64,000 bases of DNA, taken from assembly GCA_963422465.1 (NCBI GenBank), contig OY730174.1, positions 2,692,914 through 2,756,913 on the forward strand. Reading direction: 5' to 3'. The notes under the pieces were generated by a model. The model ran no database searches. It was not told the DNA's origin and worked only from the letters and a program-made list of their open reading frames with translations. This DNA comes from Lichina pygmaea. Its lineage: Eukaryota; Ascomycota; Lichinomycetes; Lichinales; Lichinaceae. The translations under genes and the position numbers were made by a program. Each line of letters opens with the position of its first letter. Positions within the stretch are counted from its first letter, which is position 1. Shown here piece after piece: positions 6,101-47,951 of the stretch.

Positions 6101-6924
6101 TGTGACAAGGCAATGGCAGAGCAGAACTCGAGCCTGACTGATTCAGTAACCTTGACCTGACTTGGCTTGAGACTTGAGACTTGGATTGATGTACAAGACA
6201 AAAGACAAGGAAGGAAAAGAGAAAAGAAGAAGAGAAGAAGCTGGGGGAGTAGGAGAAGTTCTTATAGGCAGGGGATACGGCGGAGCAAGCAGGCAACAGT
6301 GCAGATAGGACTTCCCGGCAAGGTGCGTGACTTGTGCCAGATATGCAACTGGGCCAGAACTGTGATATTACCCCCCTCCTTCACATGGCGAACTCCTGTG
6401 AGCCTCAGGCCGCTTGTGGGCGTAGTTCCGTGGCCGTGGTTTCCTTGGGTATTTCTTATGGAAGTTGTAGATGGCGTTTTTGGCGTTGTCAAGATGCTCA
6501 ATAGACTCTTCAGTGGCATCTTCAATTGGCCATCCAGACTATTTGACCAGGTACTTGAACTTCTGTCGAGATGTTGCTGGCTTGGAGTCAAGGATTTCTT
6601 CAACCTGGAACTTTTCATCTGTGTCTTGACCAATGACAGGGCCAGGGTGTTTATTTGATTGGCCAGGGATAGGATTAGCAGGTGTCAGACGTAGAAGGGA
6701 AACATGAAAGACAGGGTGGATCTTGAGAGTGTGTGGAAGCTCCAGATAGCAGGCACAGCTTCCGATTATCTTCAACATCTTGAATAGTCCAATCCACTTG
6801 TTGTCAAGCTTTTTGCATGAGTGGTGTGTCCTGATGTTCTTGGTATTCAGCCAAACAAGATCTCCAGTTTGATAGGACAGTGACAGGACTTGATGCAAAT
6901 TGGCAGTGTAAGCTTGAGCTTCCT

Positions 6925-7510
6925 TGTTACGATCCCTGGGATGGGAGCCACTCATTTATAAGCAATCAGGCCGCGGGCCAGACAAGAAAGTGACCAAACT
7001 GACAAAGGGTCACGTGACTGTCAAGACAAACACGGATGGCTTGACGCAGCATGCATGAAGCATCAAGATAATCTCACCAGTCTTGATGCAGGGTGCAGGA
7101 AGTATTGAGACAATCTCACCTGTCTTGACACAGCGTGCATTGAGCATCAAGACAATCTCACCTGTCTTGACGCAGGATGCATAACATGGTGGGACTGTTA
7201 AGACAATCTCACCTGTCTTGACGTTGAGACTGTCAAGACAATCTTGATCATCTTGACAGGCCAGCACTATATAGTCTGGCGATAGTTCCCTTATGGAACA
7301 ATCGTCTTCAACTCATGTTGTGATCCAGACAACTAGATCTACTTCAATACAATCCTTTGTACAAAGCCATTGATCAGGTGTCACCACCACCATGTTCCAC
7401 CAAACCCCTTCGCACTCCTTGACACTCCTCTCCTGCGAGAACCAACCTGCCTTCCGCATCTTGCCCTTAATCCTATACTTGGTTAGGATGGCACAGTACA
7501 GACCGCAACA
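6925..7510 (+). repeat. 5' LTR of Gypsy B with an internal minisatellite
   Basis: The 586-bp LTR starts TGTTACGATC and ends CCGCAACA. At about 7035-7260 a unit of roughly 45 bp containing AAGACAATCTCACCTGTCTT is repeated four to five times. A TATATAG box-like stretch lies near 7270. Confidence 0.85.
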
Positions 7511-10500: not shown

Positions 10501-13310
10501 ACATGAAAAAAGGAGAAGAATAGAAGACAGCTTTCAGAACCTGATACAGACACTACAAGTATCTGGTTATGCTATTCGGACTCACAAACACACCAGCAAC
10601 ATGTCAAGCATTGATCAACAACATCATCAGAGCACACCTGGACCAAACAGCTATCACCTACCTGGACAACATTCTTGTCTACTCAAACATGCAACAGGAA
10701 CATACCAAACATGTGAAGGATGTTCTACGATGCCTACAAGAGGCAGGGCTCAAGCTCAACCTGAAGAAATACAAGTTTAACAAACCAGAAGTTGAATTCC
10801 TCAGATACATCATAGGAGTTGAAGAGATCAAGATTGACTCTGAGAAAGTCAAAGTGATTCAGCAATGGCCAACACTGACATCAGTCAAGGAAGTACAAGT
10901 CTTCCTAGGATTTGCCAACTTCAACCAACAGTTTGTCAAGAACTACTCACAGACAGCAACACCACTGACAGAACTCACAAAGAAGGACATGGAGTACTGG
11001 TGGACAAAGAGATAACAAAAAGTATTCCAGCAGCTCAAGGACACTTGTGCCAAGGAACCAGTTCTCCTCAACTTCAAGACAGGCCAGCCAACACAAATCA
11101 AAACAGATGCTTCAGACCAAGCGGTGGGAGTATGTCTATGCCAACAGGTGGATGGCAAGTGGCACCCAGTTGCCTACTACTCACACAAAATATCACAAGT
11201 GGAACAAAACTATGATATCCATGACAAAGAGCTACTGGCAGTTGTCAACGCACTTGAACACTGGAGAGTGTACACGGAAAGCAGTTCTGAACTCACCATT
11301 CTCACAGACTACAAGAATCTGACAACGTTCACAACAACCAAGAAGCTGAACAGACAACAAGTCAGATGGGCTGAACTCCTAGGGCAACACAAGTTCAAGA
11401 TCTTGTACACCCCCAGACAAGACAATAGGAGAGTAGACGCACTAAGCTGACAAAAAGACCACATGGAAGATGATGAACACCAAGGAACAATCTTGCAGCA
11501 GGACCAGCAAGGAAACCTGGTGCCTCAACCACAGATCAACAAGCTCACAGCAGAAGACACTGAAGAACTAATAAGGAACTACCACGATAATCCAGCACAT
11601 AGTCACCCAGGAATCACCAAAACCACAGACCTTATCCAACAGACAGGGAACAATATCATTAACCTCTGACAACATATTACAAGCTACATCAGCAAGTGTC
11701 TACTATACCAGAAAAACAAACATGGAAGACATAAGCCATACAGAGAAGGACACCCAAACACAATACCAAGAGGTCCTTGGGAAGACATGTCAATAGACTT
11801 CATCACAAAACTACCCAAGTCCAAAGACCCAGTCACCAGAATCACCTACAACTTAATTATAGTGATTGTGGACAGATTCACAAAATACCTAATAGTAGTA
11901 CTATTCAAGGAAACCCACACAGCAGAGCAGTTGGGACACCTCCTACTGGACAGATTGGTCAGAGACCACGGAGTTCCAATCACAGTTGTTACTGACAGAG
12001 ACAAACTCTTCACATCCAACTACTGGAAAACAATTAGTGCAGCTATAGGAACAAAACCCAAAATGTCTACGGCCTATCACCCATGAACTGACAGCCAGAC
12101 AGAGTGAGCAAACCAAGTCCTGGAGACTTATTTGCGGCATTACATCAACCAGACCCACAGCAATTGGGTACAGCTATTACCAGTGGCACAGCTGGCAATT
12201 AACCAGCACAGATCAGACTCAACAAAGAAATCACCATTCTTTGCCAATTTTGGACAACACGCAAACATCAGAATACCAAGCAGAGCTTCACCAAACACGG
12301 AGAAAGCACTCCAACATAACAAGCTTCTACAACAAACACACATGATGATGAAGCACTACCTTCAAGAGACCTCAGAAAAGATGTAACACCAAATAGACAA
12401 AAAATCAAAAATGGCACCTCAGCTGAAGAAGGGGGATAAAGTCTACCTCCTCACAAAAAATTGGAAAGTCAAGAAACCAAGAACAAAGAAACTAGACTAT
12501 GTCAAGGTCAGACTATTTTCAGTCGAAGAAAGAACTGGACCAGTCAACATCAGACTGTGACTACCAAGAGACACTCGGGTACACCCAAACTTTCACATCT
12601 CAATGATCAAATTAGCTGACCAGAGCACACCCTTGCAGGAAACATTTCATTACTAACCAGAGGAAGAACAGAAATTCAAGGTCAAACATATCTTGAAGAG
12701 AAAAGGTCAGTGATACCTTGTCAAGTGGAAAAACTACCCAGACTTGGAAAATACCTGGGAACCACTCAGGAACCTCGTGAACTGCCAGCTCCTCCTGCAG
12801 CAGTTCCGGCAGAAGCAGGACTGAACAGCTTGGCCTGCAGCGCAGACATGTCAATGACTGTTGCTGACAAGTCTTCACCATCTGCCTCCATTTCAGCAAC
12901 AAGGCACTGGAGCTTCTTCCTTGCTTGACCCTCAGCACCTTCAAGAACCTTTCACTTTCAGGACACACAAGCCTGCAGCTTGGCAAGCTGCTCAACAAGA
13001 GCATCCCACTTGGTCTCATAAACAGCCAAATCCTTGTGAAGGTTATCTTGGGTTATGTTCAGCAACTCCCAAGAAAGTGACACACAGGACTTCCCACAAC
13101 AAGTGCACTCAGTGCACTTCAACTTATCGTTGTTGTCAGACATTCAGAAACAGGGCTTGTGGTTCAAAACACAGAAGTCACACAGAGCAAGCGACACAAA
13201 GTTATGATCACAGATCTGGGCTGCCAGTTGTCTTCAGTAAGCAGAGGCACGTGATTTCACAGACATACTCCAGAATTCATCAGGACAATGAATGAAGGAG
13301 AGAAGGGTAG
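7511..13310 (+). pseudogene. Internal gag-pol remnant of Gypsy B
   Basis: In order: degraded Gag (about 7.55-9.0 kb), protease (about 9.1-9.9 kb, interrupted by the solo LTR at 9319-9771), reverse transcriptase (about 10.2-10.9 kb), RNase H (about 11.0-11.45 kb), integrase with an HHCC-type start and catalytic core (about 11.5-12.4 kb) and a chromodomain near 12.68-12.78 kb. The coding strand is A-rich. Many breaks; a fossil. Confidence 0.8.
9319..9771 (-). repeat. Solo LTR (family B2) inside Gypsy B protease
   Basis: The 453-bp LTR lies in opposite orientation to its host and is flanked by a perfect AAAGG duplication (9314-9318 and 9772-9776). Its 3' half (in element sense) matches the 3' half of the Gypsy B LTR, ending in CCGCAACA. 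Its first part, beginning TGTTACGACCCAGG, is unrelated to that of B. Confidence 0.9.
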
Positions 13311-13850
13311 TGTTATGATCTCTGGGATGGGAGCCACTTATTTATAAGCAATCAGGCTGTGGGCCAGACAAGAGGACACCATGGAAAGTCAAGTGACCAA
13401 ACTGACAAAGAGTCATGTGACTGTCGAGACAAACACAGATAGCTTGACGCAGCATGCATGAAGCATCAAGACAATCTCACCAGTCTTGATGCAGAGTGCA
13501 GGAAGTATCAAGACAATCTCACCTGTCTCAACACAGTGTGCATGGAGCATCAAGACAATCTCACCTGTCTTGACACAGGATACATAACATGGTGGGACTG
13601 TCAAGACAATCTCACCTATCTTGATGTCAAGACTGTCAAGACAATCTTGATTGTCTTGACAGGCCAGCACTATATTTTTTTTATTTGTTTTATTTGATTC
13701 TTACACTGGTAGTAGCTTTACAGCCATGCAGATCTTCTAGCTAATAGTGAACTCCTTCAGAAAACCTTTGAAGAGATAAAAACTGAAGGCAGGGTGTGAC
13801 TAGGGAATGTAACAAAAGGAATCTTGAAGTTTCTGGTAAGAGAAGAGAAT

Positions 13851-14954
13851 CTAGGTATTAGATTGGGAATAGTGGAGTTTGAAAGCTAGATTAAACTGGT
13901 TTAGTCTTTTCAAAGACATAAACCAGTACAAGAACTTCTGTAGTAGCTCTGGGTTTGAAATAATAGTGGTGAAGTCTTGGGGATTAAAAGAGACTTGTTG
14001 TCTTTGTCTTGAATAAAGAGAGCATGAAGAGGTGATATGTTTTGCAGTTTCTTCTGCTTGGCCACACACACATAGTGGGGTAGGGAAGTCAGGAACTCCA
14101 GCTCTGAAAAGAAAACTTGCCAGACCAATTCTTCCAGTCCTGATTTGCAGTAGCAGACTTGCCTCAGCTTTCTGTAACTCTTTGTAGAGCTTCAGATTGT
14201 TTTTGTGTGGCTTTTGACAGAAAGTCTGCCAGCCTGGATAGCTTCTTCTTTTCTTCTCTTCCCATTGGTCTTCCCACTCTTTAGTAAAGAGCTTTTGTAG
14301 TTCTTTCTTTGAACTAGCCTGGTTAGTAGTTATTTGACTTAACCAAGTGAATTTCCACTTAGGAGAGATAGTTGAGGATTCCTTTAAAGGTTTCTTCAAG
14401 AGAGAGGCATAGCTGGAAATAGTGGAAAAGATACTGTCAAGAAAGTATTTGAGAGGGGAGTTTTGAATAGAAGAAAGAAAACAGGCAGTGCGAAATTTAA
14501 AGTATAGGTCTAGAGGTAGAAGAAAAAGCTCACTCTCTAATAGAAAAGAAGGAGTGGCTTTGAAGACACTCCCAATAAGTCTTAGGCATCTGTTTTGAAA
14601 TGAAACAAGAGAAGAGATATTGGAGGATTTTCTTAGAGAGTTAAACCAGATCCCCACTGCATAGCTCAGTAGAGATCTCAGTATAGCAGTGTACACCAGA
14701 CATGATGTGTGAACTGGAAAGCCCCAAGTAGAATAGGAAGTTCTAGAAAGAGAAGAGAGTGCTTTCTGTGCTTTTTGAAGAATAATCCTCTGGTGTTTGT
14801 GCCAGTGGAGCTTTGCATCTAGGTACACTCCAAGTACTCGCACTTCTTCTTTTGGTTTGAGAATCACATTCCCCAGTCTGAGCTTGAGCTGAAGATTGTC
14901 TGATCTTCTTCTGGAAAAATGAAGTATTTCATATTTCTCAGGTGAGAAGACCAT
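13851..14954 (-). pseudogene. C-terminal 367 codons of LINE ORF2 (5'-truncated copy)
   Basis: The frame is almost identical to the end of the full-length LINE ORF2 at 31648-32751, with only a few residue differences. It starts downstream of the FADD-containing RT core, so no catalytic domain remains. It ends with the Cys/His-rich motif CVCGQAEETAKH. The near identity shows recent activity of this LINE family. Confidence 0.85.
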
Positions 14955-15008
14955 TCCATGTCTTGCAGCCCAGGATAGACATTTGTGGTGTGTGTTCTTT
15001 AACTTCAG

Positions 15009-16126
15009 ACCACAGTCGTACTATACCAGAACATAGTGTAGAGTTGGCACCCCCCCACAGGGTCTCTACCACACTTTCCCACAGTCCCGAGGTCTCTTGC
15101 ACTCCGCTGTACGTGCTCACCCCTGGGATCCTGCTTCAGAGCGCTGGGTCACCAGCCCAGAGCCTACGCTCCAACTGTAGTTTGCTCCCTGAGCTTGTTG
15201 TTTGCAGCCTAAGCCTGCACTCCGTACGAACCGGCATGCGCATCCGTCCTCTCGGGCTATATAGACAGTCTCGTAGTAGGCCCAGGCCCTACCTCTGTCA
15301 CTGCTATTATATGCCACGCCTCGCAGTTGTTAACTGTTTTGTGTTACCTTCGCAGATCTCTCGTACAAAGGCCGACCATGCCTTGCAGGCCTTACGGACC
15401 CTGCAGGCTGTGCCAGCACCTGCAGGGCTGCCTTTCCAGCCCACTAACCAAGTAGGGAGGAGTTCTCCTTGGTCCGCTGTCGCCTGTGGGGCCCCGGTTG
15501 CACCTGTTGGCCCACTGGATAACCCAGTCCCCTGGCCCCAGATTGTGGATTGTACGAAGAGACTTTGTGGCAAGACCTTAGGCAAAACCATCAAGCCAGC
15601 ACTTTGGCTATCACACAGCCCTTAGGCACTGGAGCGGTGATGTCTCCTTGTACGACCACTCTCCTTCTTTAACAGGTGGTCCACGTTCGATTAACAACGC
15701 CACAGTGCCAAGGCCACTCCCCCCCTAGCAGATCCTCACGTGTTAGCTGGAGACTCTGCTAGGAGGGTGACGTGATGAGAACTCCTCTTGACTACTCCAG
15801 AGGTGCCCTATCAGACACCTAGACTTCACATCCACCAGCTGTGGGGCTGGCTTCGGGCTGTAGCGTACACAGTAGTCGTCTGTCAGGTGGTTTTCATCTC
15901 CCAAGCTTGGTCGCAGTCCTCTGTTCTGCTGTAGCTGTTTCACGGGGGTGTCCAGAGTGCCTGCGCGACACCTCCGGTGGCCTGTCACTCCGCAACACCA
16001 GCAGCTTGACCGGTGACTTGATTAGCTCTTGGTGCAGCGACTACGAGCAGCCTGGGAAGCCGCCCACCATCGACTGCCCCGAGGTTCCCAGCCTGCACCA
16101 CGTGGAGGTTCGAGTCGTTGCAGGCC
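15009..16126 (-). other. Non-LINE half of the chimera, 1118 bp of unknown origin
   Basis: This segment has no match to any element or gene elsewhere in the window. It is richer in G and C than the surrounding retroelements and has no convincing coding frame across its length. Its junction to the LINE shows at most a couple of bases of shared sequence. It may derive from another cellular or repetitive RNA copied after a template jump; the size resembles the WEIRD module of MINE. Confidence 0.6.
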
Positions 16127-16420: not shown

Positions 16421-19400
16421 CTACATCATTTCTCCAGAGATTTCTATAGCATCTTGGTTGCAGGCTTCACTTGTGGGTGTGATGCTGAGCTGTGGATGGA
16501 ACCCTTTGTTGGCAAAGAACAGTGACATGCCAGAGGAATCAGACTGGGAGTTGTTCTGTGTGAACTCTGCCAGAGGAAGCCATTGGACCCAGTCATCTTG
16601 GAGATAGTTGACATAGGATCTCAGGTAGTGTTCAAGCTCCTGATTCTCTTGTTCTGTCTGACTATCTATCTCTGGGTGGTGTCCTGAGGATAGTCGTAGC
16701 ATGATGTCAAGATGGGCACAGAGTGCTTTCCAGAATAAGCTGACAAACTGACCTTCTCTGTCTGAGACAATGCTCCTGGGCAAGCCATGGGTACAGACAA
16801 CAAACTGGATGAACATCCAGACAAGATGCGAGGTTGTCATCTCAGCACATAGCACAAAGTAGTGTTCTTTGGTGAGATAGTCAGTGATAACCCAGATGTG
16901 CTTGGCACCAGGGAAGCAGGCATCTCTTGACTTGGGCAAGTTAGTAATAAAATCCATAGCCAGATCCTGCCAACGTTGCTGAGGCACAGGAAGAGACAGC
17001 AGCTTTCCTTGGTGATCATGGGCAGACTTTGCTCAAGAGCAGACATGACAATTCCTGATGTACTGCTATATGATGTTCACTATCTTTGGCCAATAGTACC
17101 AACAAGACAGGAGATTGTGGGTCTTGGCAATCCCAGTGTGGCCAGCTATTGCTTGGTCATAGGCTTCTTGGAACAGGTGTAGGTGTAGCTTATTGTTCTC
17201 AGGGATCCAGAGTCAGTTCTTGTAGAAAAGATAGTTATTTTCCAAGCTGCAGTCTGAGAGAGACACTTCTCGACTGTGCCTGACACTATCCCTTAGCATC
17301 TGTGACACTGTTGCCACTGGATCACCTTCAGCAAGGTTGTTATAGGTAGCTTAGATGATATCTGAAAGAGGTGCAGCATCAGGTTCAGTGTCAACTAGTG
17401 CAGCTTCTGAACATCTCAGGATCTGGATGGGCTTGACTTGAACCTCTGGATGTGCAAGATTCTTGGGCTTGAGGACAACTTGCTCTATGAAGTCTTGACA
17501 GAGATCACTGTCTGACAGGAGATCTTGGGAACATCAAGTGAGAGTGTCAGCCTTGCACTGACTGCCTGGACAGTAGCTGATCTTGAAATTAAAGTGTGAC
17601 AAGAACTTGCTCCAACAGGCTTGACGGTGGGAAAGGCACTTTGACAACATGAAGTACTCCAAGTTCTTGTGATCAGAGATCACCTTGACAGGTTCTGGAG
17701 ATCCTTCAAGCTCTGCTTGCTATTCTTCAAAGGCATAGACAATTGCCAGCAACTCTTTGTTGTAGATCTTGTAGTTGCATTCTGCCAGCAGGTGGTGGTG
17801 TGACAAGAAGGCAACAGGGCGTAGAACTCCTTCATGGTCTGGCTATGACAGGACAGCACCAGAGATATAGTCAGAAGTGTCAGTCTCAACAACACACTCC
17901 TTCTCCAGATCAAAGTGCTGCAGGATGGGTGCAGTGCTGAACACCTTCTTGATGCTTTCAAACAAGCACTGCTCTGGGGTTTCCCACTTGAAGGCAACAT
18001 TCTTCTTGGTCAGAGCTGTGAGCAGGGATGCAAGCTTGGCAAAGTCTTTGATGAACTGGTGGTAGAAGTTTGCAAAGGCAATAAAGCTCTGCACTTTCTT
18101 GAGACTGGCAGAAGGCTTCCACTTCTTGATGGTGTCGGTTTTGGCTGGGTCCATGCTCACAGATCTGGGTTGGCTATCTTCAGTGGCAGACTGAATGATG
18201 AGGCCAAGGTACTTGACTTGATACACTTCAAAGTTGTACTTGGAGATGTCAACTTGCAGGCTTGCATCTTGTAGTCGACTGAGAACAAGCTTGACATGCT
18301 TCTGGTGTTCCTTGAGTGTCTGACTGTAGACAAGGATGTCATCCACATAGGCAGTGCCAAAGACATCAAGGATGTCAGGTCCCAAAACATCATTGATGTA
18401 GTTCTGGAATATGCTTGGAGTATTGGCAAGACCAAAGAGTATAACAAGGTATTCGTAGAGGCCTGAGTGTGTGTGGAATGCAGTTTTCTATTCTTCACCT
18501 TCCTTCATCTGGATACAGTTGAAGGCACCAACAATGTCAAGCTTGGTGTACCACACAGCTTTGCAAAGCTGGTCCAACATCTTCTGGATCAGTGGCAGAG
18601 GGTAACAGTTCTTGATGGTGATAGTGTTGAGTGCTCTGTAGTCTACACAGAAACACAATCCACCTTCTGGCTTCTTGACAAAAAGGACTGGTGCAGCAGC
18701 AGGTGATGAAGATGCTTGAATGAAGCCCTTGTTCAGGTTCTCTGTCAGGTACTTCTTGAGAACTTCAAGTTCTTCTCTGCTCATGCTATACAGAGGTCCA
18801 GAGGGTGCCTGGGTTCCTGGTTCTATCTTGATCTTGTGGTCAACTCCTGGGTGTAGAGGAGGAAGCTTGTCAGTGTCATCCTTGCTGAAGATATCCAGGA
18901 ACTTGTGGTACTGAGCAGGGAGAAGTGTGGCAGGATCCACACACTTCTTTGGCTTCAACACCTGCTCAATGTCTCTCAGAGAAACACTGAACACCTGGTG
19001 ATCTGGCTTGGCAGCAAGGAGAGAAAATGCGGCAGCATTGATGGGGATTGGTGTGGCAGAAAGAGGCTTGGGATCCTGAGGCTTTCCAGCAGACATCTTG
19101 GCTTCAAGATCCAAAGAGATTGGATAGCTATTGTTTGACTTGAGGCATGCAGATCAGCAGTGATCTGACTTGAACATAATTGAGGTGTTTGTCTAATCAA
19201 TATGTAGTCTGTGCTTCTGGAGCTATGGCATCCCCAGAATCACATTATAGTGAAGACCAGGAGACACAAAGAGAGAGACTTCTTCCTGGTGCACGCCATG
19301 TGCTGTGGTCATGATTGTCTTGGTGAGATGTGTGGTTTGTGACATCTTGCCATCAAACAATCACAATGTACGTGGGTAGAGGAGAGGTTCTTGGTGAAGA

Positions 19401-21820: not shown

Positions 21821-23245
21821 ATGGCTCCCAAGAAGAAAAAACTCACCTTTTCAGAAAGTAACACCAGAGCTACACCAGCTATACTCTCCCAACCAGCTCC
21901 CAGTCTGGCTAGCACCCAGTCCAGCTCTCCTACCCCCCAACCAGCTCCCCAGAGTGACTACAAACTAGTAGACTTCTGGATCAAAACTCAACCAGTCCCA
22001 GAATCTATTCTGAAAAGCTGGGAAAATATCAAAAAGAACTCCTTCTCTACAGAAGCCCAGTCTAGCTCCACTGGCCTCACCAACAGAATCTTCCAGGAGC
22101 TGGAGAATATCAACAAGCGGCTGGACAAACAAGAAGCCAAGCCATCATATGCCCAGGCTGTCCAAAAATCTATTCCAGCACAAATCCCTCTACCTGCAAG
22201 AATTCTCAAAGAAGTTCTTGTACATCCTGGTATCCAGCCACCTGACATGGCTAATAGAACTCACATCCAGCTTTTCCAGGCTCTTCAAGACAGACTACCC
22301 AGCCCCTACAACAAGCAGGTCAGAGCAGTAAGGAAACTTCCTTCAGGGGATATCTTTATTAACACAGAAAGCCAAGAGACTAAAGTCTTCCTAGAGAAAA
22401 ACCCTGCCTGGGTATCAGCTATCTTCACAAAGGAAGCAACCATCCAGCCCAAGAGATTTCCAGTTCTGATCCATGGAGTCAGAACAGAAGATATCCAACC
22501 TGAAGACCTGGAGAAAACCCGCCAGATAATCCAGAACAGCAACCCATCTCTGAGCAAGCAAATCACCATCCTGAGAGCCTACTGGTCTAAGAAGGCTATA
22601 GCTCAAAAGAAGCCAGTTACCTCTCTCCACCTGGATCTGGCTACCCCTGAACAAGCCAATCTTTTGATTGAGAGTGGGCTAGTGCTGGGGCACAGGATGC
22701 ATGAAGCAGAACCTTTTCTGGCAGACACAGTTATTGCACAATGTTTCAAGTGCTTTGGCTATGGGCACCAAGCACGCTTCTGCAAGAACAAAGCTGTGTG
22801 TGGTGCCTGTGGAGGCCAGCATGAAAGGAGAGCCTGCCAAGTTCCTGAACAGCTTCTCAAGCCAAAATGCTGCAACTGCAGAGAAGCTCACCCAGCCTGG
22901 GCTAGTGTCTGTCCAGTACGCCAGGAAGCAGCCAAGAAGGCAAGAGAAGCATGGAACACACGCCCAGGAAAATATGAGATCCCAACAGCTACCTCTGTTC
23001 CAGCTCTACAACCCCCCCCCCAGTTATGTCTTTCCCTCTCTCTCAGTCTCTACCAGGGGGGAAAAAACATAAAACAGCTGAGCCAAGCAGAAGCTCAGAG
23101 AGACTCAGAGGTGCACTCCCAGAAGTGCAAATTCTTTCTTCAAGATCAGCCAACTCTGGAGGAAAGCTACCAGCTAACTTCTTCAAGATCTTTGATGCTG
23201 AGATGTCTGCATGAAAGACACAAAGCTGACACTTCTCCAGTATAA
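21821..23245 (+). CDS. LINE ORF1, Gag-like nucleic-acid-binding protein (474 aa)
   Basis: The protein starts with a Lys-rich patch and a Ser/Pro/Gln-rich low-complexity region. A central folded part follows, then three closely spaced zinc knuckles around residues 305-365 (motifs CFKCFGYGHQARFC, CGACGGQHERRAC and CCNCREAHPAWASVC). This is the layout of ORF1 proteins in the Tad1 clade, which bind the LINE RNA. The ATG at 21821 follows the 5' untranslated region. The stop at 23245 overlaps the ORF2 start by 35 nt in another frame, which suggests coupled translation or reinitiation. Confidence 0.9.
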   Translation: MAPKKKKLTFSESNTRATPAILSQPAPSLASTQSSSPTPQPAPQSDYKLVDFWIKTQPVPESILKSWENIKKNSFSTEAQSSSTGLTNRIFQELENINKRLDKQEAKPSYAQAVQKSIPAQIPLPARILKEVLVHPGIQPPDMANRTHIQLFQALQDRLPSPYNKQVRAVRKLPSGDIFINTESQETKVFLEKNPAWVSAIFTKEATIQPKRFPVLIHGVRTEDIQPEDLEKTRQIIQNSNPSLSKQITILRAYWSKKAIAQKKPVTSLHLDLATPEQANLLIESGLVLGHRMHEAEPFLADTVIAQCFKCFGYGHQARFCKNKAVCGACGGQHERRACQVPEQLLKPKCCNCREAHPAWASVCPVRQEAAKKAREAWNTRPGKYEIPTATSVPALQPPPQLCLSLSLSLYQGGKNIKQLSQAEAQRDSEVHSQKCKFFLQDQPTLEESYQLTSSRSLMLRCLHERHKADTSPV

Positions 23246-24704
23246 TGTGCAAAAAAGCCAATCAGTCCAAGAGCTACTGCTAGCAACCTCAGCTCTCCAA
23301 GAGGTGGACATTATTGCACTTCAAGAGCCCTGGAAAAACCCTCACCTAGAAACAAGCACTTCAACTGTTTTCTCTTCCTTTCTTCCTCTCTACTGTTCAG
23401 AGATTGGCAGAACACTTTTTCTTATTAATAAAAATCTGAAACTCTCTTCTCTTCATCCTACCTTCTGGAATAAAGACTTTGTTTCTCTTGAAATCTACTT
23501 GGAAAACTCTTCTACTTCTCTTTGGGTACATAATCTCTACTTCACCCCATCAAGTCAAGAAAACTACACAGAGGCATCAGAAGCTCTTCTCTGTTTACTC
23601 CAAAATACTTTACAAGAACAAGGACAACATATTCTTCTCACAGACTCAAATCTTCACCACCCAGACTGGTCAAAGAAAAGAAGACTGTACTCTGAGACTG
23701 CAAACAAGTTTCAAGACCTAATGAAAGATTTAAATCTGGATTTAGCTATTGCACCTTTCACCCCTACCAGAGCAAGATCTCTTTCTGAAAAACCATGTTC
23801 TTCTATTGATCTGTCTTTTATTTCTTCTTCTCTTTCTAACTCTCTGATTTTCTCTAAAGTGGCTCTTCAGTTCTTTCATGGGTCTGACCACAGACCTGTA
23901 CTAACCTGCCTGGACCTGGATCCTCCAAGGAAAATCTGGAAACCAGAAAGAAACTGGAGAACACTGGACTCAAACCTTGCAAGAGTAGAGTGTGAGAAGC
24001 TACATCTGCCCTTCCACTTCCAAGACAAATATGAAGTGGATGAGTACTTGGAGTATCTTGACAACTTTCTCCAAGAAATAGCAAGCAAATCCACACAGCT
24101 CCAGAAGCAATCTGGCCACTCAGTTCCCTGGTGGAATCAAGAGATCCAAAACAAGGTTAAAGAGGAAAGAAGAGTAAGAAGAAAAGTGCAAAAAAGGCAA
24201 GCAAGTCAAGAGGAACTTGAGCAAGCAACTAAGCTCAAGAAAAAAGCAGTCAGAGATGGAAAACAGAACACTTTCAGACACCAAATCCATGAGCTGGCCA
24301 GCTCTTCAAAGTTCTGGAAGCTTGCAAAGTGGGGAAAGTCCAAAGCCAACAAGACTTCTGATCTTCCTCTGGTTCCTGACCTGGAAACACAAGAAGGAAT
24401 AGCCAAAACCTTTGAGGAAAAGACTAAAGCCTTCTCACAACAGTTCTTTCCAAAAGCTCTAGTTCCAGAACCAGGCTCAGAAAGCTCCCAGACTATCTCT
24501 GAGATACAGCTCTCCCAGGAGGTAACATGTGAAGAAGTGGAGCAAATTCTGGCCAAGAAGAAACCTTTCACAGCAGGAGGGAGAGATAAGCTGCCAAATG
24601 GATTTCTGAGAGCTCTGGGGCCTGGGTTCTGCCAAGCTCTAGCTATTCTGACTTCAACATGCTGGAAACTGGAGTACTTCCCTGAAAGATTTAAGAGTGC
24701 AAAA
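23211..24704 (+). CDS. LINE ORF2, first part: AP endonuclease and RT approach
   Basis: ORF2 opens at 23211 inside the end of ORF1. The first 230 residues are an apurinic/apyrimidinic-type endonuclease, the enzyme that nicks target DNA. Visible motifs are LQYNV, QEPW, DSNLHHPDW, SSIDLSFIS and the terminal GSDHRPV with the catalytic Asp-His pair. A linker rich in Lys and Glu follows. The frame is then cut by Gypsy C at 24705 and continues open at 31003. No other damage is visible in this part. Confidence 0.9.
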
Positions 24705-25135
24705 TGTTAAAGGCCGGGCCGGGTTCACACAGAAACCGGTACGGTCTGTTGCTTCGTAGGGCGGATTCTAGACAGGGACTCGGTAGAGGAATAGACAGGT
24801 GGGGTAACTCTCCTGTGCTATTGTCTCAGTACGATGGATTCGTATTGTGTGTTGTGTTCAGTCTGGAGAGCTAATCCCTCCGGGCCCTTTGGGGGGTCTT
24901 TATACAGATGCCCCAAGGGGGGGGGTCTCCTCAAGGGGTATCATCCTTTTGCGTGGACGAGCTCCTCGCTTAGCTCCTGCTCGTCCACCAGACAAGCTCC
25001 TCGCTTAGCTCCTGCTTGTCCACCGGACGAGCTCCTCGCTTAGCTCTTGCTTGTCCACTGGATCAGTCGGATGTTGTTCTGTATGACTAACACTCCTCCC
25101 TCGCTTACCTGGGCTGTTCCGGCCTAGGCCTTAAC
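24705..25135 (-). repeat. 3' LTR of Gypsy C
   Basis: Matches 30531-30997. It contains the tandem unit with GAGCTCCTCGCTTAGCTCC at about 24955-25065. Confidence 0.9.
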
Positions 25136-25197
25136 ACTATCCCCTCTCTCCAAGAGTTCTGTCCCCAGATCCTTTTTGTTCCTGCTCCTCTTTTGTC

Positions 25198-25770
25198 ATG
25201 AACCAAAGCCAGACAACTCGAACTTGTCGTCGCAGTTTTCTCTCTTGTCGTATTGGCAAAATGGGCAAGGAATCAAAAATCGCATGCGGTGCTTGTCGTC
25301 GTGACCACACCAAGTGTGTCGTGAGCTCTGCGTCATCTTTTTGTTGTCGGTGTGTTGAGAAGGGTTGTCGCTGCGACCTTCATCTCTCGGAATCAGAATG
25401 GAAGAAGATGGAACTTGAGCGTGAGCAGCTCAAGGCTCAGCTGCGGGAGACTGATGACCAATTGTCAAAGTTACTTCCCTGGCAGATCTGCCTCCGCCGG
25501 CAGCTGGGTCATCTCTCACAGAAGGAGGCTGATGCCATCTGTTGTGAGCTGTCAGCCATCAAGGATCAAGAGTCCCTTGATGCTCAGGAACAAGAGGCCC
25601 TCCGCGTTATCCGCAAACAGGAGGCCTGTCAGGCTGCTGCTCCACCGTCCTTTGAGGACGTCTTCTCTTTGGAGGCTTTGGCTTCTCTTGAGCTGTTGTC
25701 TCTGTCAGACCTGGTCGCTGCGGGTTTGCTCGGTGGTAATCCACCAGCTTCTGGTTCATCACAGAGCTGA
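25198..25770 (+). CDS. Antisense accessory ORF of Gypsy C: Zn(II)2Cys6 protein with coiled coil (190 aa)
   Basis: The frame lies on the strand opposite to gag-pol, 62 bp inside the 3' LTR, and overlaps the chromodomain end by about 160 bp antisense. Residues about 28-56 give six cysteines spaced CX2CX6CX8CX2CX6C, a textbook GAL4-type binuclear zinc cluster, with basic residues in the first loop. A heptad-like Glu/Leu/Gln stretch (about residues 63-90) follows as a possible dimerisation helix. The acidic, Leu-rich C-terminus could activate transcription. An internal Met at 25261 is an alternative start. The frame is uninterrupted although the element's own genes are broken. Function is inferred. 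Confidence 0.65.
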   Translation: MNQSQTTRTCRRSFLSCRIGKMGKESKIACGACRRDHTKCVVSSASSFCCRCVEKGCRCDLHLSESEWKKMELEREQLKAQLRETDDQLSKLLPWQICLRRQLGHLSQKEADAICCELSAIKDQESLDAQEQEALRVIRKQEACQAAAPPSFEDVFSLEALASLELLSLSDLVAAGLLGGNPPASGSSQS

Positions 25771-28700
25771 AGTTTTTGGTTGGTTCCCACAAATTCTCCT
25801 CTTCGTCAAATCCTAACCACTTCACCAGGTACTCAGTTTTCTGTCTGTTTCTTCGACTATCCAGGATCCTTTCAACATTGTACTCTTCTTCGTCGTCCTC
25901 GAAGTTCCATTCTGTCTTGATCTCTGCGTCGCTGGGTGCTGGTTTGAGCAGCAAGACATGGAATACTCAGTGTATCCTTGCTTTTCGTGGCAGTCTCAGT
26001 CGATAGTTGACCTTCCCAGTGCGCTTCTTGATTTCGAATAGTCTGATTCGTACGTGGTCCAGCTTTTTGCTCAGTCGCTTCGAGCGCAGGTTCTTTGTTG
26101 ATAGGTAGACCTTATCCCCTCTTTCCAGGGTTGGTCCCTTCAACCTTTTGTTGTGTAATCAGCGGGCGGTGGTGTTCTGGGCATGGTCGATTGTTGTTTT
26201 CATCATCTTGTGCATAGCAGTGAGTTTGCTAACATCGACAACGTTGCCTTCTGCTGTTGCCTGCCATCGGGGGTTTCTTCCGTAGTTTGCAAAGAACAGT
26301 GTTGTCCCTGTCACACTGTGTTGCTGGTTGTTGTACGCAAACTGGGCTATTGGTAGCAGTTCCACCCAGTTATCCTGCTGGTGGTTGATGTAGTGTCGTA
26401 GATACTGCTCCATTGTCTGGTTTGTCCGCTCAGTTTGTCTGTCAGTTTGTGGGTGGTAGGCTGTTGACATCCTTGTATCAATGCCAAGTTGCCTTGTCCA
26501 CGTGTTCCAGAATTTCGAGGTGAAGAGTTTGTCTTGATCTGAGATAATTGTCTTTGGTAGCCCTCGGTGGCTTACCAGCTCTTTGAGTAGGACGCTTGCA
26601 AGTTTGTTCACGGTTCCTGACTCTTTCCACAGGACCAGGTGGGTATATTTGGTGAGCTTGTCAACAACCACCAAAATGCTATCGTATACCACCTTTGTTG
26701 CTGGGTCTGTTGACTTTGGCAACTTGACCACAAAATCCATCATGATAGTTTCCCATGGTGCCTCGGGTAGGTCTATTTGCTGTGCCTGCCCGTAGAGCTT
26801 ATGTCTTGATGGTTTGTTCTTCGCGCACTGTTCGCAGTTGCGGATGAACTCCGTCACCTTGCGCTTCATTCTGTCGAAGCAGTAGTTCCTTTGGATTTTC
26901 TCCAAGGTTTTATCTCGCCCGGGGTGTCTGTGCAAAGGCCTGTCATGGTGCCTCCGGATCACCTCCTCTTGTGCTCTTTCTGGCACAATTTCCTTTTTGT
27001 TTGCTGTCTTGTGGCCAAGGGTAAGGAGTGGACCCTTTATTTCCGTTATTGCCAGTTGGGGTTGGGCATAGACCAGGGTTTGTCCTCTTGTCGCTAGGAT
27101 TGGGTGTTCCTCTGTTGTTTTCTCATCCATCAGGTCTGGTCGCCTGCTGAGAGTGTCTGCTCAAGCATTTTCAGTGCTCTTCCGGTAGAGGATTTGGAAG
27201 TTGTATGATGCTAACAACTCTGCCCATCGAACTTGTTGTCAGTTTAGCTTCTTTGTTGTTGTGAAGTAAGCTAAGTTCTTGTGGTCTGAGTACATGTCTA
27301 CCGTGTATTTTGCCCCCTCCAAGTAAGGCCTCCATTCTTGGAATGTGTCGACGATTGCTAACAACTCTTTGTTGTGAACATTGTACCTCAGTTCTGGGCC
27401 AGAGAACTTTCTCGATCAGTACGCGACAGGGTGTAAGCGGTTGTCGGCGTCTGGTTGACACAAGCAGGATCCCAATGCTTGGTCCGAGGCATCAGTTTCC
27501 AGAATGATCCTCTTCTCGGGATCAAATGATGCCAAAATAGGTGTGGAGATGAATTTATCCTTCAACTCCTGGAAGGCTGCTCGCTGGCTCTCCCCCCACC
27601 TGAAAGATTTGTTCTTTCTGGTTAACTCTGTCAAGACTGCTGCTGTTCTTGAGTAGTCCTTGATGAATCATCGGTAGAAGTTCGCAAATCCTAGGAAGGA
27701 TTGTACTTCTTTGAGGTTTTTGGGTGTTGGCCAGTCTTGTACTGCTGCCGTCTTTGTGTCGTCCATTCGGATTCCTTCTGTTGTCAGGATTGACCCCAAA
27801 TATTCCACTTCTTTTGTGTGGAAAACACTCTTATCCAGGCGTAACCTTATTCCTGCTTTCTGGAGTGCATGTAGGATCTTCTTGACATGCTGTTTATACT
27901 CCTCCAAGGTTCCATTGGTGTATACCAAGACATCGTCAATATAAGCGGTGACAAATATGTCCAGGTATTGTCAGAGGACAGCGTTAATAAGTGATTGGAA
28001 TGTCACCAGTGCATTCGTAAGGCCAAATGGCATCACAGTATACTTGTAGTGCCCGTACCTCGTACGAAAGGCTGTCTTCCATTCTTCGCTGTCTTTCATC
28101 CTAACCAGGTTGAAAGCGCCTTGAATGTTGAACTTGGTAAACTATTTGGCTTCTTGGATCCGGTCTTGGATTTCTGATATCAATGGCAGTGGGTAGCGGT
28201 TCTTCACCGTAATCACATTTAGCCGCTGATAATCAACACACAGTCGAAGTTTGCTGTCTTTCTTTGGCACAAACAATATCGGGTATCCAGCTGGTGATGT
28301 TGAAGGTCTTATGAACTCTTTCGCTAGGTTCTCGTCCAGGTAGTCTCTCAGGGCCTCAAGCTCTTTTGCTGACAGAGTGTAGATAGGGCTGTGTGTGGGT
28401 TTTTTTCTGTCTTCCAGCGGAATCTTGTGGTCCCACTCCTGATGTTCTGGTAGTGTCGTGATCGCTGTTTCTTCGAACATCTCCTGGTATTCTTTATACT
28501 CACTTGGCAACTGCGGTGCCTGAGTCTCACCCACAGCGTCTTGCGTGGTGCAAAGTTGTTGTGTTCAGGGTTTCATCCAGGCCACACAGGCCTGCCCGCG
28601 CTGGTGGTATTTCTTCCACTATGTCAGTGAGATTTCTTTAATCGTCACCCCTGGTTCTGACATAACCAGTGTCCTGTCCGGAAAGACTAGTTGCCTTCTT

Positions 28701-30530: not shown

Positions 30531-30997
30531 TGTTAAAGCTCGGGCTGGGTTCACACAGAAACCGGTACGGTCTGTTGCTTTGTAGGGCGGATTCTAGACA
30601 GGGACTTGGTAGAGGAATAGACAGGTGGGGTAACTCTCCTGTGCTATTGTCTCAGTACGATGGATTTGTATTGTGTGTTGTGTTCAGCCTGGAGAGCTAA
30701 TCCCTCCGGGCCCTTTGGGGAGTCTTTATACAGATGCCCCAAGGGGGGGGGTCTCCTCGAGGGGTATCATCCTTTTGCGTGGACGAGCTCCTCGCTTAGC
30801 TCCTGCTTGTCCACCGGACAAGCTCCTCGCTTAGCTCCTGCTTGTCCACCGGACGAGCTCCTCGCTTAGCTCCTGCTTGTCCACCGGACGAGCTCCTCGC
30901 TTAGCTCTTGCTCGTCCACCGGATCAGTCAGATGTTGTTCCGTATGACTAACACTCCTCCCTCGCTTACCTGGGCTGTTCCGGCCTAGGCCTTAACA
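30531..30997 (-). repeat. 5' LTR of Gypsy C
   Basis: Matches 24705-25135 and has one additional copy of the 35-bp unit (about 30778-30920). Confidence 0.9.
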
Positions 30998-31002
30998 CAA
31001 AA

Positions 31003-32751
31003 ACAGTCTGCTTGAGGAAACCTGGCAAGGGAACCTACAATCAAGCTAAAGCCTGGCGCCCTATAGCTCTGCTAAACACAACAGGCAAGCTGATGGAAGC
31101 TATTGCTGCAGCCAGACTAAGCAAGATAGCAGAAGAAGCTGGACTATTGCCAGATATCCAGATGGGCTTTAGGAAAGGAAGATCCACAGAAGCAGCACTT
31201 TTCCTTCTAACCTCCCAAGTGGAAAAAGTCTGGAAGGAAGGCATGGTTGCATCCCTACTCTCACTGGATATCTCAGGAGCCTATGACAGAGTTCTCCCCA
31301 AGATACTACAGCAAATTCTGAAAAGAAAAGGAATACCTGCCTGGCTAGCTTCCTGGATCTACTCCTTCTGTGATAAGCGCTCTACCACTCTTGTCTTTGA
31401 TGATTCTGAGTCTTATTCTATTCCTATTCATTGTGGAGTTCCTCAAGGTTCTCCATTATCCCCTATTCTTTTTCTATTCTACATTTCTGAATTGCATAAG
31501 ACTGTGCATACTCCCTCTTCTGGTGTATCTGCCCTGGGGTTTGCAGATGATACAAATCTGCTTGCTTTTGGTCACTCCTTGAAAAGTAACCTTCTGAAGT
31601 TAAAGAACACACACCACAAATGTCTATCCTGGGCTGCAAGACATGGAATGGTCTTCTCACCTGAGAAATATGAAATACTTCATTTTTCCAGAAGAAGATC
31701 AGACAATCTTCAGCTCAAGCTCAGACTGGGGAATGTGATTCTCAAACCAAAAGAAGAAGTGCGAGTACTTGGAGTGTACCTAGATGCAAAGCTCCACTGG
31801 CACAAACACCAGAGGATTATTCTTCAAAAAGCACAGAAAGCACTCTCTTCTCTTTCTAGAACTTCCTATTCTACTTGGGGCTTTCCAGTTCACACATCAC
31901 GTCTGGTGTACACTGCTATACTGAGATCTCTACTGAGCTATGCAGTGGGGATCTGGTTTAACCCTCTAAGAAAATCCTCCAATATCTCTTCTCTTGTTTC
32001 ATTTCAAAACAGATGCCTAAGACTTATTGGGGGTGCCTTCAAAGCCACTCCTTCTTTTCTATTAGAGAGTGAGCTTTTTCTTCTACCTCTAGACCTATAC
32101 TTTAAATTTCGCACTGCCTGTTTTCTTTCTTCTATTCAAAACTCCCCTCTCAAATACTTTCTTGACAGTATCTTTTCCACTATTTCCAGCTATGCCTCTC
32201 TCTTGAAGAAACCTTTAAAGGAATCCTCAACTATCTCTCCTAAGTGGAAATTCACTTGGTTAAGTCAAATAACTACTAACCAGGCTAGTTCAAAGAAAGA
32301 ACTACAAAAGCTCTTTACTAAAGAGTGGGAAGACCAATGGGAAGAGAAGAAAAGAAGAAGCTATCCAGGCTGGCAGACTTTCTGTCAAAAGCCACACAAA
32401 AACAATCTGAAGCTCTACAAAGAGTTACAGAAAGCTGAGGCAAGTCTACTACTGCAAATCAGGACTGGAAGAATTGGTCTGGCAAGTTTTCTTTTCAGAG
32501 CTGGAGCTCCTGACTTCCCTACCCCACTATGTGTGTGTGGCCAAGCAGAAGAAACTGCAAAACATATCACCTCTTCATGCCCCCTTTATTCAAGACAAAG
32601 ACAACAAGTCTCTTTTAATCCCCAAGACTTCACCACTATTATTTCAAACCCAGAGCTACTACAGAAGTTCTTGTACTGGTTTATGTCTTTGAAAAGACTA
32701 AACCAGTTTAATCTAGCTTTCAAACTCCACTATTCCCAATCTAATACCTAG
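31003..32751 (+). CDS. LINE ORF2, second part: reverse transcriptase and C-terminal zinc motif
   Basis: This stretch contains the RT fingers and palm. Motifs include RPIALLNTTGKL, QMGFRKGRSTEAA, LSLDISGAYDRV, GVPQGSPLSP and the catalytic GFADDTNLL. A long thumb-like region follows, ending in CVCGQAEETAKHITSSC, a Cys/His motif common in LINEs. I see no RNase H domain, which many Tad1 relatives carry. The stop is at 32751, followed by about 170 bp of 3' untranslated region and the A-rich tail. Confidence 0.9.
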   Translation, partial: TVCLRKPGKGTYNQAKAWRPIALLNTTGKLMEAIAAARLSKIAEEAGLLPDIQMGFRKGRSTEAALFLLTSQVEKVWKEGMVASLLSLDISGAYDRVLPKILQQILKRKGIPAWLASWIYSFCDKRSTTLVFDDSESYSIPIHCGVPQGSPLSPILFLFYISELHKTVHTPSSGVSALGFADDTNLLAFGHSLKSNLLKLKNTHHKCLSWAARHGMVFSPEKYEILHFSRRRSDNLQLKLRLGNVILKPKEEVRVLGVYLDAKLHWHKHQRIILQKAQKALSSLSRTSYSTWGFPVHTSRLVYTAILRSLLSYAVGIWFNPLRKSSNISSLVSFQNRCLRLIGGAFKATPSFLLESELFLLPLDLYFKFRTACFLSSIQNSPLKYFLDSIFSTISSYASLLKKPLKESSTISPKWKFTWLSQITTNQASSKKELQKLFTKEWEDQWEEKKRRSYPGWQTFCQKPHKNNLKLYKELQKAEASLLLQIRTGRIGLASFLFRAGAPDFPTPLCVCGQAEETAKHITSSCPLYSRQRQQVSFNPQDFTTIISNPELLQKFLYWFMSLKRLNQFNLAFKLHYSQSNT

Positions 32752-32955
32752 ATTCTCTTCTCTTACCAGAAACTTCAAGATTTCTTTTGTTACATTCCCT
32801 AGTCACACCCTGCCTTCAGTTTTTATCCCTTAAAAGGTTTTCTGAAGGAGTTCACTATTAGCTAGAAGATCTGCATGGCTGTAAAGCTACTACCAGTGTA
32901 AGAATCAAATAAATAAAATAAAAATGTCTGGGCTTAGTGCCCAACATCTCCGTAC

Positions 32956-45692: not shown

Positions 45693-47951
45693 CTATCCCC
45701 TCGGCGACGTCTTTTGGCCACAGCAACCTTCAATCTCCGCTTTCGCGATGCAGAAGCCCGAGTGGAAATCCGCATATCGCTGCTCGTCCGCGCCAATCTC
45801 TGCGAGGCAGACGTTCAGGCTGTCGCGCTCCCGACGCGCTAGCTCTCGCAGGATCCCTCGGCTGTTGGCGGAGAGCAACGACGATGCCGCGATGACATCG
45901 TGCAGACCGACAAAGGCCCAGGCGAGCCCGAGTAGGAACTCGGCGTTCGCCACGGGCCGCATCGACCAGTGCAACATTCGCAGTGCAAAGTCCGACGGCC
46001 AGCGTTGGAGAACCTCCTGGAGACTTGCGAACGCTGGCGACCCGTAGCCCCTGGCCATCTCGAGTCCCAGCTCGACGAGACCGGGACACTCGGTCCGTCG
46101 CACCTCGTCCATGCCAGCGACGCCAGGACCTTCGACGTCGAAGCCGGACTGGGCCCGCAGGAACCGCACGACGGAGGAGGCAGTCTTTGTCGTCGTCCTC
46201 CACGGGACCGACACAAAGCCTTCGAGGAGACAGGGATGAGCGAACCAAAGGGGGAGAAGGCCGGACGCCTCGGGCACTGGCGCGACCGCAATCGGAGAGT
46301 CGAGGCTCGGGAGAGACGAGTTCGCCGAGGTCGTTGGAGCGAGCGGCTCCTCGACCGCGTCGACGGGCAGGAAGACGGGGTAGTCGACGGAGATATCCCG
46401 AGGCCGGGAGAACGGATCCTGGGCTGCGTCGGTCCGGCCGACGAACGACCAGTACACCTGCGGATCTGGGATGCCCAGGGTATCGATCCATCGCCTGACC
46501 ACTTCGACCTCTGACTGGGTGAAGGACCCGAACATCTTGCCTCGCCACGACAGCTCGTGGATCAGCTTGCTGTTGTCGCTGTCTCCCTTCCGTATCCACG
46601 GCGTCAGCTTGCTCAGATGGTCCATGAATTCCATCTGCTGCGCTTTCGACACCAACGCTCCCGGTTGCAGCCAATCGACCAGGTTCCGACTGCCAAGCTT
46701 CATCCTGCTGCTGCAGTGGATCTTGCCCGCCGCGGCCGCCTTGCCCCTGAGGATCTGGATCACCTTGGCTTCGTGTTGGTTGCGCGGAAACGATTCGGGG
46801 TCGGGATCGGGTCGGGTCTCGAGGCCGCCGTCGCTGGAGAGCTGCTCGGATAGGATGTAACCTGCCTGCACGCGCCTCCAGGCTTGATGAGCCGCCGCAT
46901 CTCCGTGGGATCTCCGCATCTGGCCGATATAGTTGATCACCGTCTGCATCGCGATGGCCGTGTGGCCCGAGTCGGCATTGTCGATGGAGATGTGCAGGAC
47001 AAAGTAGTAAGGGTTCAGTCGCACTTCCTTGAGTTCTCTGGCCGCCTTGAAGGTCTCTTGGGTGATCTCCTCGAAGTGCAGGTTGAATCCAAGGATCTCT
47101 GGCAGGAACTCGTGCGGGAACAAAGAGACGAGCAGCTGGGCCACAGCGGCTTTCCAGACGCACAGGTCGTCGAGCTCGTGCCGAGGATGGATGAAGTCGG
47201 CGTCGTCACCGTCCGGCAGGTCGGCCCCGATCTGCTTCATCAGGGACCGGTACACCTGAACGTGGTTCTTCTCGGCGTCGCCGTCCCCGAGCTCTTCCGA
47301 CAAGACTTGCCACGCATCCTTCGTCATCCGACGCAGGGCAAAGGGCGTGGTGATCCTGTTGATGTGACCCAGCCACGCACCGTCCACGTACTTGACCGGA
47401 GCGTGCTGCCTCAGCCACCGGCGCGCTTCGGCCCTGTCGCGGAAGTGTTCCTTGGGGGCGCCGGCCTTCCTTCGGGCGAGGTAATCTTCCCACAATTCCG
47501 CGTTCCGATCCCTCTGACCGCAGAGAAATCTTTCGAGATTCTCGGGCGTGTAGCTCTCGACCGACAAGATCGGCGCTCTCGGCCGCCTCTGCGCGTCCGC
47601 GAGCGTCTCGGCGAACATGGAGAGGAGGAGTTCCCGCGACTCGGGAAGAATGTCCGGGTACCGCTCGAGGTTGTGCAGTTTGAAGTAGAGCTCCTTGAGG
47701 CGCTGCAGCTCCTCCAGCTTTGCGGGGTCCGATTCCTTCTCGGCTGGGGCGGCCAATTGGTCGGGCTTCGGGGTTTCCGGAGACGGCTTGACGGTGGGAG
47801 CCTGCCGACGCTCCTCGACAGCCCAGCTCAGCAGGCTTCCGACGTAGACCTTCAGCGGGCCGCCGCCGGCGCGGATGAAGAGAGACGCGAACATGACGAT
47901 GAAGATCGACGGAAGGACCAAGGCCACATCGATCTCGAAGCCGGCCGCCAT
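45693..47951 (-). CDS. Membrane-anchored haem-oxygenase-like iron oxidase (PF14518 type), 752 aa
   Basis: A single uninterrupted exon. Residues about 9-26 form one hydrophobic helix, a probable N-terminal anchor. Residues about 195-345 match the iron-containing redox enzyme family, a haem-oxygenase-fold group that binds iron (often two) rather than haem. Candidate ligands are E219 or E220 and H230 (EELGDGDAEKNH), E285 (PEILGFNLHFE), H320, D324 and H330 (LHISIDNADSGH). Known members include UndA, BesC and SznF, which cleave C-C bonds or oxidise nitrogen. The C-terminal 350 residues are unfamiliar. It lies between two 2OG oxygenase genes. The reaction is unknown. High GC and full length argue for a functional gene. 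Confidence 0.82.
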   Translation of the reverse strand: MAAGFEIDVALVLPSIFIVMFASLFIRAGGGPLKVYVGSLLSWAVEERRQAPTVKPSPETPKPDQLAAPAEKESDPAKLEELQRLKELYFKLHNLERYPDILPESRELLLSMFAETLADAQRRPRAPILSVESYTPENLERFLCGQRDRNAELWEDYLARRKAGAPKEHFRDRAEARRWLRQHAPVKYVDGAWLGHINRITTPFALRRMTKDAWQVLSEELGDGDAEKNHVQVYRSLMKQIGADLPDGDDADFIHPRHELDDLCVWKAAVAQLLVSLFPHEFLPEILGFNLHFEEITQETFKAARELKEVRLNPYYFVLHISIDNADSGHTAIAMQTVINYIGQMRRSHGDAAAHQAWRRVQAGYILSEQLSSDGGLETRPDPDPESFPRNQHEAKVIQILRGKAAAAGKIHCSSRMKLGSRNLVDWLQPGALVSKAQQMEFMDHLSKLTPWIRKGDSDNSKLIHELSWRGKMFGSFTQSEVEVVRRWIDTLGIPDPQVYWSFVGRTDAAQDPFSRPRDISVDYPVFLPVDAVEEPLAPTTSANSSLPSLDSPIAVAPVPEASGLLPLWFAHPCLLEGFVSVPWRTTTKTASSVVRFLRAQSGFDVEGPGVAGMDEVRRTECPGLVELGLEMARGYGSPAFASLQEVLQRWPSDFALRMLHWSMRPVANAEFLLGLAWAFVGLHDVIAASSLLSANSRGILRELARRERDSLNVCLAEIGADEQRYADFHSGFCIAKAEIEGCCGQKTSPRG

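Follow-up and report, generated by a model that had tools for sequence, protein, structure and literature searches.

The window (the whole 64,000-nucleotide stretch of Lichina pygmaea DNA analysed here) contains a Gypsy retrotransposon, Gypsy C. The target sequence CAAAA, duplicated on either side of this element, places its 3′ LTR at the position given in Table 1. The pol of Gypsy C matches the Pfam models rve and Integrase_H2C2, followed by Chromo, and this order of integrase and then chromodomain identifies it as a chromovirus. Gypsy C is nested in a LINE-type element, with an endonuclease ORF to its left and a reverse transcriptase ORF to its right (window 23202–24707 and 30952–32748). An inverted repeat of 1.3 kb (13678–15009 and 31593–32924, 99% identity) resembles a recent 3′ part of a LINE; one copy follows a short T run next to the 3′ LTR of Gypsy A, a second family, and the other lies where the LINE encodes its reverse transcriptase. 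Gypsy B, a third family, is represented by fragments at 16424–18931 and 6437–6877, and the coordinates of its copies in the same genome indicate that these two fragments adjoin in one element. Host-type genes for a carnitine/choline acyltransferase and an iron-containing redox enzyme (Haem_oxygenas_2) were found at 51921–53573 (−) and 45696–47966 (−), respectively.

Translation confirmed the uninterrupted 190-codon frame with a six-cysteine cluster that the preliminary description had reported on the strand opposite to gag-pol. The frame starts 61 nt inward of the LTR edge, just inside the 3′ LTR as had been claimed. The translated cysteines are arranged as C30-X2-C33-X6-C40-X8-C49-X2-C52-X6-C59, and the basic first loop announced for the cluster is present (RRDHTK). 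Two long helices predicted at residues 65–105 and 108–146 fit the claimed coiled coil, and the claimed acidic end corresponds to a tail of acidic and hydrophobic residues, a possible activation region. Codons 1–136 are clear of pol, whereas codons 137–190 overlap its tail (25607–25770, the last 164 nt of the ORF). The overlap with the chromodomain described earlier holds for the last ~32 nt of the domain only, the rest of the shared sequence being the C-terminal tail of pol. By lying antisense to gag-pol and between pol and the 3′ LTR, the frame has the position of an aORF-3R.

Table 1. Features of Gypsy C and Gypsy A in the window (positions in nucleotides of the window; a point marks features given without orientation).
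Feature	Position	Strand	Evidence or remark
Antisense accessory ORF, Gypsy C	25198–25770	+	190 codons and stop, from translation
Six-Cys Zn2Cys6-type cluster, codons 30–59	25285–25374	+	Spacing CX2CX6CX8CX2CX6C
Predicted coiled-coil helices, residues 65–146	25390–25635	+	Structure prediction
Acidic/hydrophobic C-terminal tail of the ORF	25645–25734	+	Translation; overlaps pol
Stop codon of Gypsy C pol	25607–25609	−	
Chromodomain of Gypsy C pol	~25739–25882	−	PF00385, 51.3 bits
3′ LTR, Gypsy C	24705–25136	−	LTR match and CAAAA target duplication
5′ LTR, Gypsy C	~30531–30997	−	LTR match; four-unit array at 30781–30923
Tandem array in 3′ LTR, Gypsy C	24955–25058	.	About three 35-bp units; dyad GGACRAGC-N16-GCTYGTCC
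TATAAAG, Gypsy C	24898–24904	−	Follows the array by ~50 bp in gag-pol sense
Antisense ORF, Gypsy A, in the matching place	12766–13266	−	166 codons; stops interrupt the window copy
Six-Cys cluster of Gypsy A ORF	13084–13182	−	CX2CX6CX11CX2CX6C, one stop inside
LTR array, Gypsy A	13409–13665	.	Dyads TCAAGACA-N8-TGTCTTGA and variants, mostly ~42-bp spacing
TATAAATA, Gypsy A	13339–13346	−	Between the array and the antisense ORF (3′ LTR)

Gypsy C is a high-copy Gypsy family. A protein search of the genome (32.47 Mb, 8 contigs) returned at least 150 matches to the frame, with 150 of 275 candidates scored. The 104 distinct copies fetched comprise 44 found among the first 60 loci and 60 of the lowest-ranking matches, so that sampling was non-random. 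Three were dropped (L020 and L029 for indels; L094, shifted in register and lacking three bases), leaving 101 for analysis, of which some lack the last codons and one (L109) codons 1–11. Indels were found in the ORF of 2 of 44 copies (L020 and L029) and in the LTR of 32 of 34, where array length varies; in pol (26160–27150), 9 of 40 copies carry a deletion relative to copy L001.

Free interruption of the frame and loss of its cysteines had been proposed as observations that would speak against the preliminary interpretation; interruption was found in part. Of the 101 copies, 26 are stop-free over all codons fetched and 71 over codons 27–190, and the stops cluster at codon 8 (59 copies, each with TGA), codon 3 (21) and codon 68 (18). 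Copies that kept more CpG have fewer stops (10/18 stop-free with at least 30 CpG versus 4/26 with fewer than 12), which indicates that much of the decay is CpG loss; stops are thus common because dead copies decay largely by this route. Decay centred on CpG affects both strands heavily: in the 101 copies, the CpG sites counted show the TG state 1903 times and the CA state 1603 times. Each cysteine of the cluster is retained in 96–101 copies, and 82 of the 101 keep the complete set. This retention is weak evidence, and we set it aside: the minor frequency was 0.00–0.05 at the five cysteine codons tested versus a mean of 0.05 over 72 non-CpG G sites, which in general are kept about equally well.

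To estimate selection, we used omega, the observed over expected ratio of non-silent to silent variants at sites that are never CpG in the copies used. The expectation was drawn from same-base sites and copy relatedness was ignored, which makes the p values rough. Over codons 1–136 in the 101 copies, single-copy variants were silent in 14 of 47 cases (expected 15.6; omega 1.17). Among variants present in at least two copies, 46 of 92 were silent (expected 34.7; omega 0.61, p 0.011), in at least five copies 29 of 50 (expected 18.8; omega 0.43, p 0.001), and in at least ten copies 22 of 34 (expected 12.4; omega 0.32), a value reached by 0 of 2000 simulations. The selection signal therefore rises with the number of copies that share a variant. 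A ratio near 1, which had also been named beforehand as counting against the preliminary interpretation, was found for single-copy variants but not for shared ones; neutral single-copy variants together with constrained shared variants are expected of a gene that is selected in active elements and decays in dead copies. One minus-strand frame of the same stretch gave a weaker signal (0.66, p 0.028; 0.66, p 0.083; 0.53, p 0.037, at thresholds of two, five and ten copies), and none of the other four frames reached p 0.05.

Other parts of the element served as controls in 42 copies with flanks (first pol stretch 42 copies, second 40 of 42, LTR 34 of 42, the others being removed for low identity). 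Omega for shared variants was 0.31 in the antisense ORF, 0.38 and 0.30 in the two pol stretches, and 1.33 in the LTR treated as coding. The frame is thus conserved like the other genes of the element, as in an aORF-3R. Where the ORF overlaps pol, the signal was absent for either frame (2/9 variants silent in the antisense frame, 3/10 in pol). CpG losses in the frame are also biased towards silent changes (16/23 informative sites, p 0.047), an outcome that one opposite-strand frame could equally produce. A hand count from the variant list gave 4 silent variants of 11 in codons 1–26 and 25 of 39 in codons 27–136; no constraint was found in codons 1–26, so the protein start is uncertain. The start context of M22 is good in the window copy, as judged by eye. 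We did not adopt M22 as the true start, since G at site 66, within its codon, is the minority state (31 copies). Our results show that the Gypsy C frame is coding under selection, and the ratios for shared variants, read against the pol and LTR controls, support the view that the element carries a protein gene under selection, which we hold to be very probable.

To what kind of protein does the frame belong? Regulators of the PF00172 family share a CX2CX6CX5-12CX2CX6-8C spacing, a range that the Gypsy C cluster fits. In the six frames of the 64-kb window, stops allowed, the six-cysteine spacing pattern occurred twice, in the ORFs of Gypsy C and Gypsy A, versus none in 60 order-2 Markov simulations of 64 kb each, which puts it beyond chance. 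The Pfam zinc-cluster model (Zn_clus, PF00172; curated cut-off 21 bits) gave no match to the window copy at E values up to 1 and matched 3 of 16 aligned copies at the same limit. Its best score was 18.5 bits (E 0.0022; zinc part of copy L018), and scores over the copies shown ranged from 14.8 to 18.5 bits, all under the cut-off; unrelated Pfam models with no link to such DNA binding reached similar E values. A PDB search with the zinc part returned seven weak matches, five of them Zn2Cys6 regulators, each at E >1, the best match being a RING protein. With the whole alignment, the best match was a coiled-coil protein, and LEU3 appeared at E 0.77. AlphaFold2 modelled the two helices with a mean pLDDT of 64–89 per 10-residue block, and residues 24–63, the zinc part, at a pLDDT below 50.

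Many fungal Zn2Cys6 factors dimerise through a coiled coil and recognise half-sites in pairs. PUT3, LEU3 and Pho7, which were among the weak PDB matches, resemble the Gypsy C protein in a six-cysteine spacing within the family range and in a basic first loop; the Gypsy C protein differs in scoring under the Pfam cut-off, in its small size and in being borne by a retrotransposon. We consider it likely that the Gypsy C product is a zinc-cluster DNA-binding dimer, for which we infer zinc binding, DNA binding, dimerisation and transcription.

The second family offers a comparison. Gypsy A pol is 41% identical to that of Gypsy C, and LTR matches lie at 6925–7272 and 13311–13675 (possibly incomplete). 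The Gypsy A ORF lies antisense between the chromodomain end and the 3′ LTR, matching the Gypsy C layout. Similarity between the two proteins was not significant by BLASTP or profile comparison; we therefore rejected a claim of sequence homology and limit ours to shared place and layout. No Pfam zinc-cluster match was obtained with the Gypsy A pieces, and the predicted model of one piece, with a mean pLDDT of 48.7, was set aside. Selection was not found on the Gypsy A frame (shared-variant omega 0.91 and 1.01 in 38 of 40 rows, two of other length being dropped), and 0 of the 38 copies in register were stop-free. Evidence of selection thus comes from Gypsy C only. In Gypsy B, the zinc-cluster spacing was absent from the antisense frames after the chromodomain in 8 of 8 stretches.

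The LTRs of Gypsy C carry tandem arrays of a 35-bp palindromic unit, with about four units in the 5′ LTR versus three in the 3′ LTR of the same insertion. Across 44 copies of the element, the 3′ LTR holds one to seven units, and 100 of 101 spacings are exactly 35 bp. In 145 units, identity is about 98% or higher at 26 of 27 non-CpG positions; the remaining one, position 24 in the spacer, reaches 74%. By our own summation, the mean minor frequency is ~0.016 at these 27 positions versus 0.024–0.032 elsewhere in the LTR. Conservation extends beyond the dyad arms, and homogenisation of the tandem copies may account for it. Within the unit, CpG losses differ between the strands; we considered this as a sign of binding and dropped it, since many CpG sites of the ORF are equally skewed. 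On the sense strand of the Gypsy A 5′ LTR, the array precedes TATATAG. Counting overlapping placements, we found 16, 21, 30 and 29 dyads in the four Gypsy C and Gypsy A LTRs of the window, versus shuffle-control means of 2.6–4.7 and maxima of 11–18, and none in four Gypsy B LTRs. Dyad arrays therefore occur in the LTRs of both families with a six-cysteine ORF and not in the third, an association over three families.

Together, these features suggest how the gene may work. The Gypsy C frame is an accessory gene of its family that would be transcribed against gag-pol, starting from the side of the 3′ LTR. Its product would be a small nuclear-type protein in which a long coiled coil, by which it would pair, lies between a Zn2Cys6 cluster and an acidic/hydrophobic tail. 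A dimer of this protein would bind the tandem palindromes of its own LTR, which lie upstream of the gag-pol TATA box, between that box and the antisense gene, and binding could tune transcription of gag-pol and perhaps of the antisense gene itself. On balance, we think it somewhat more likely than not that the protein acts on the array of its own LTR, a candidate target. For the DNA-binding regulator claimed in the preliminary description, the support is indirect: the palindrome arrays speak anew for a putative regulatory role, short of proof, and the best Zn_clus score stays below the cut-off. More tentatively, there is a fair possibility that some fungal Gypsy families carry their own control module, an antisense zinc-cluster regulator and an LTR palindrome array that co-diverge between families.

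Selection on the frame shows that some function exists, and a selected antisense accessory protein could have a target outside the LTR; it might, for example, control host genes, chaperone nucleic acids, direct integration to certain targets or assist import into the nucleus. For antisense proteins of other retroelements, a nuclear location with no known target is reported in the part of the source covered (PMC7264820). This explanation, which we regard as less likely, fails to account for dyad arrays in both gene-bearing families and their absence from the third.

Two further readings were weighed. Zn2Cys6 regulators are typical of fungi, and the frame might be a captured fragment of a host gene, now mostly neutral cargo; the many stops among copies are in keeping with this. 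Among the 150 matches listed in the genome, all of them close copies of the frame that could mask a host gene, no host relative was seen. Selection as strong as in pol and a second family with the same layout and place make such a capture improbable. Very improbable is a chance opening of the frame in which antisense RNA, or nothing, matters: the weak signal of one minus-strand frame for variants in at least ten copies would agree with it, but the signal is strongest in the antisense ORF frame and grows with sharing, and the cysteine spacing was absent from the simulations. We reject a chance frame on this frame-specific selection and on the rarity of the spacing.

The preliminary description had called such a gene unusual for an LTR element. 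This is tempered by antisense accessory genes known between pol and the 3′ LTR in Boty (brtn), Retand and Grande, as far as the literature covered goes. The antisense gene brtn of Boty/BcGypsy1 from Botrytis cinerea was reportedly described by Zhao et al. in 2011. In the parts of the sources covered, Boty is a fungal Gypsy whose gag-pol ends in a chromodomain (PMC4227169), and brtn is an extra gene antisense to gag-pol, between pol and the 3′ LTR (PMC7264820; also covered in PMC8365987). Boty and Gypsy C, so described, are alike in being fungal chromodomain Gypsy hosts and in the antisense place of the gene, which makes brtn the closest precedent, likened by description only. The LTR array and the selection test are features of the present analysis that do not appear in the Boty descriptions covered. 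Among the papers listed in searches of the open-access literature, a scope that the original brtn description falls outside, none described an LTR element with an antisense gene of the Zn2Cys6 kind.

More distant systems share parts of this arrangement. The TRP28 antisense ORFs of the plant Retand elements lie between pol and the 3′ LTR and have predicted DNA binding; many Retand elements carry tandem repeats, and their antisense ORFs have been proposed to serve in DNA binding (PMC11963269, in the part covered). They thus resemble the Gypsy C gene in antisense place, predicted DNA binding and tandem repeats, as far as that account goes, but differ in having another domain and in belonging to a plant non-chromovirus element. 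HBZ of HTLV-1 is a bZIP protein with a coiled coil that affects viral transcription. It is a nuclear antisense protein according to the part of the same source covered (PMC11963269). HBZ compares with the Gypsy C gene, by analogy only, as an antisense gene on the 3′ LTR side with a coiled coil and a nuclear product; it differs in being bZIP rather than Zn2Cys6 and in belonging to an infectious mammalian retrovirus.

Antisense accessory genes of LTR retrotransposons have long been known, without an established function in the literature as covered here. What is added is a zinc-cluster layout, a test for selection in which pol and the LTR served as controls, and a candidate target. The Gypsy C gene combines selection as strong as that on pol, a DNA-binding layout and a candidate target in the same element, so that the function of an antisense accessory gene becomes a matter for a simple binding experiment. 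If such a control module exists, dispersed LTRs would bring sites for the element's regulator next to host genes across the genome, and a retrotransposon family would be disseminating a regulator together with the sites that it binds.
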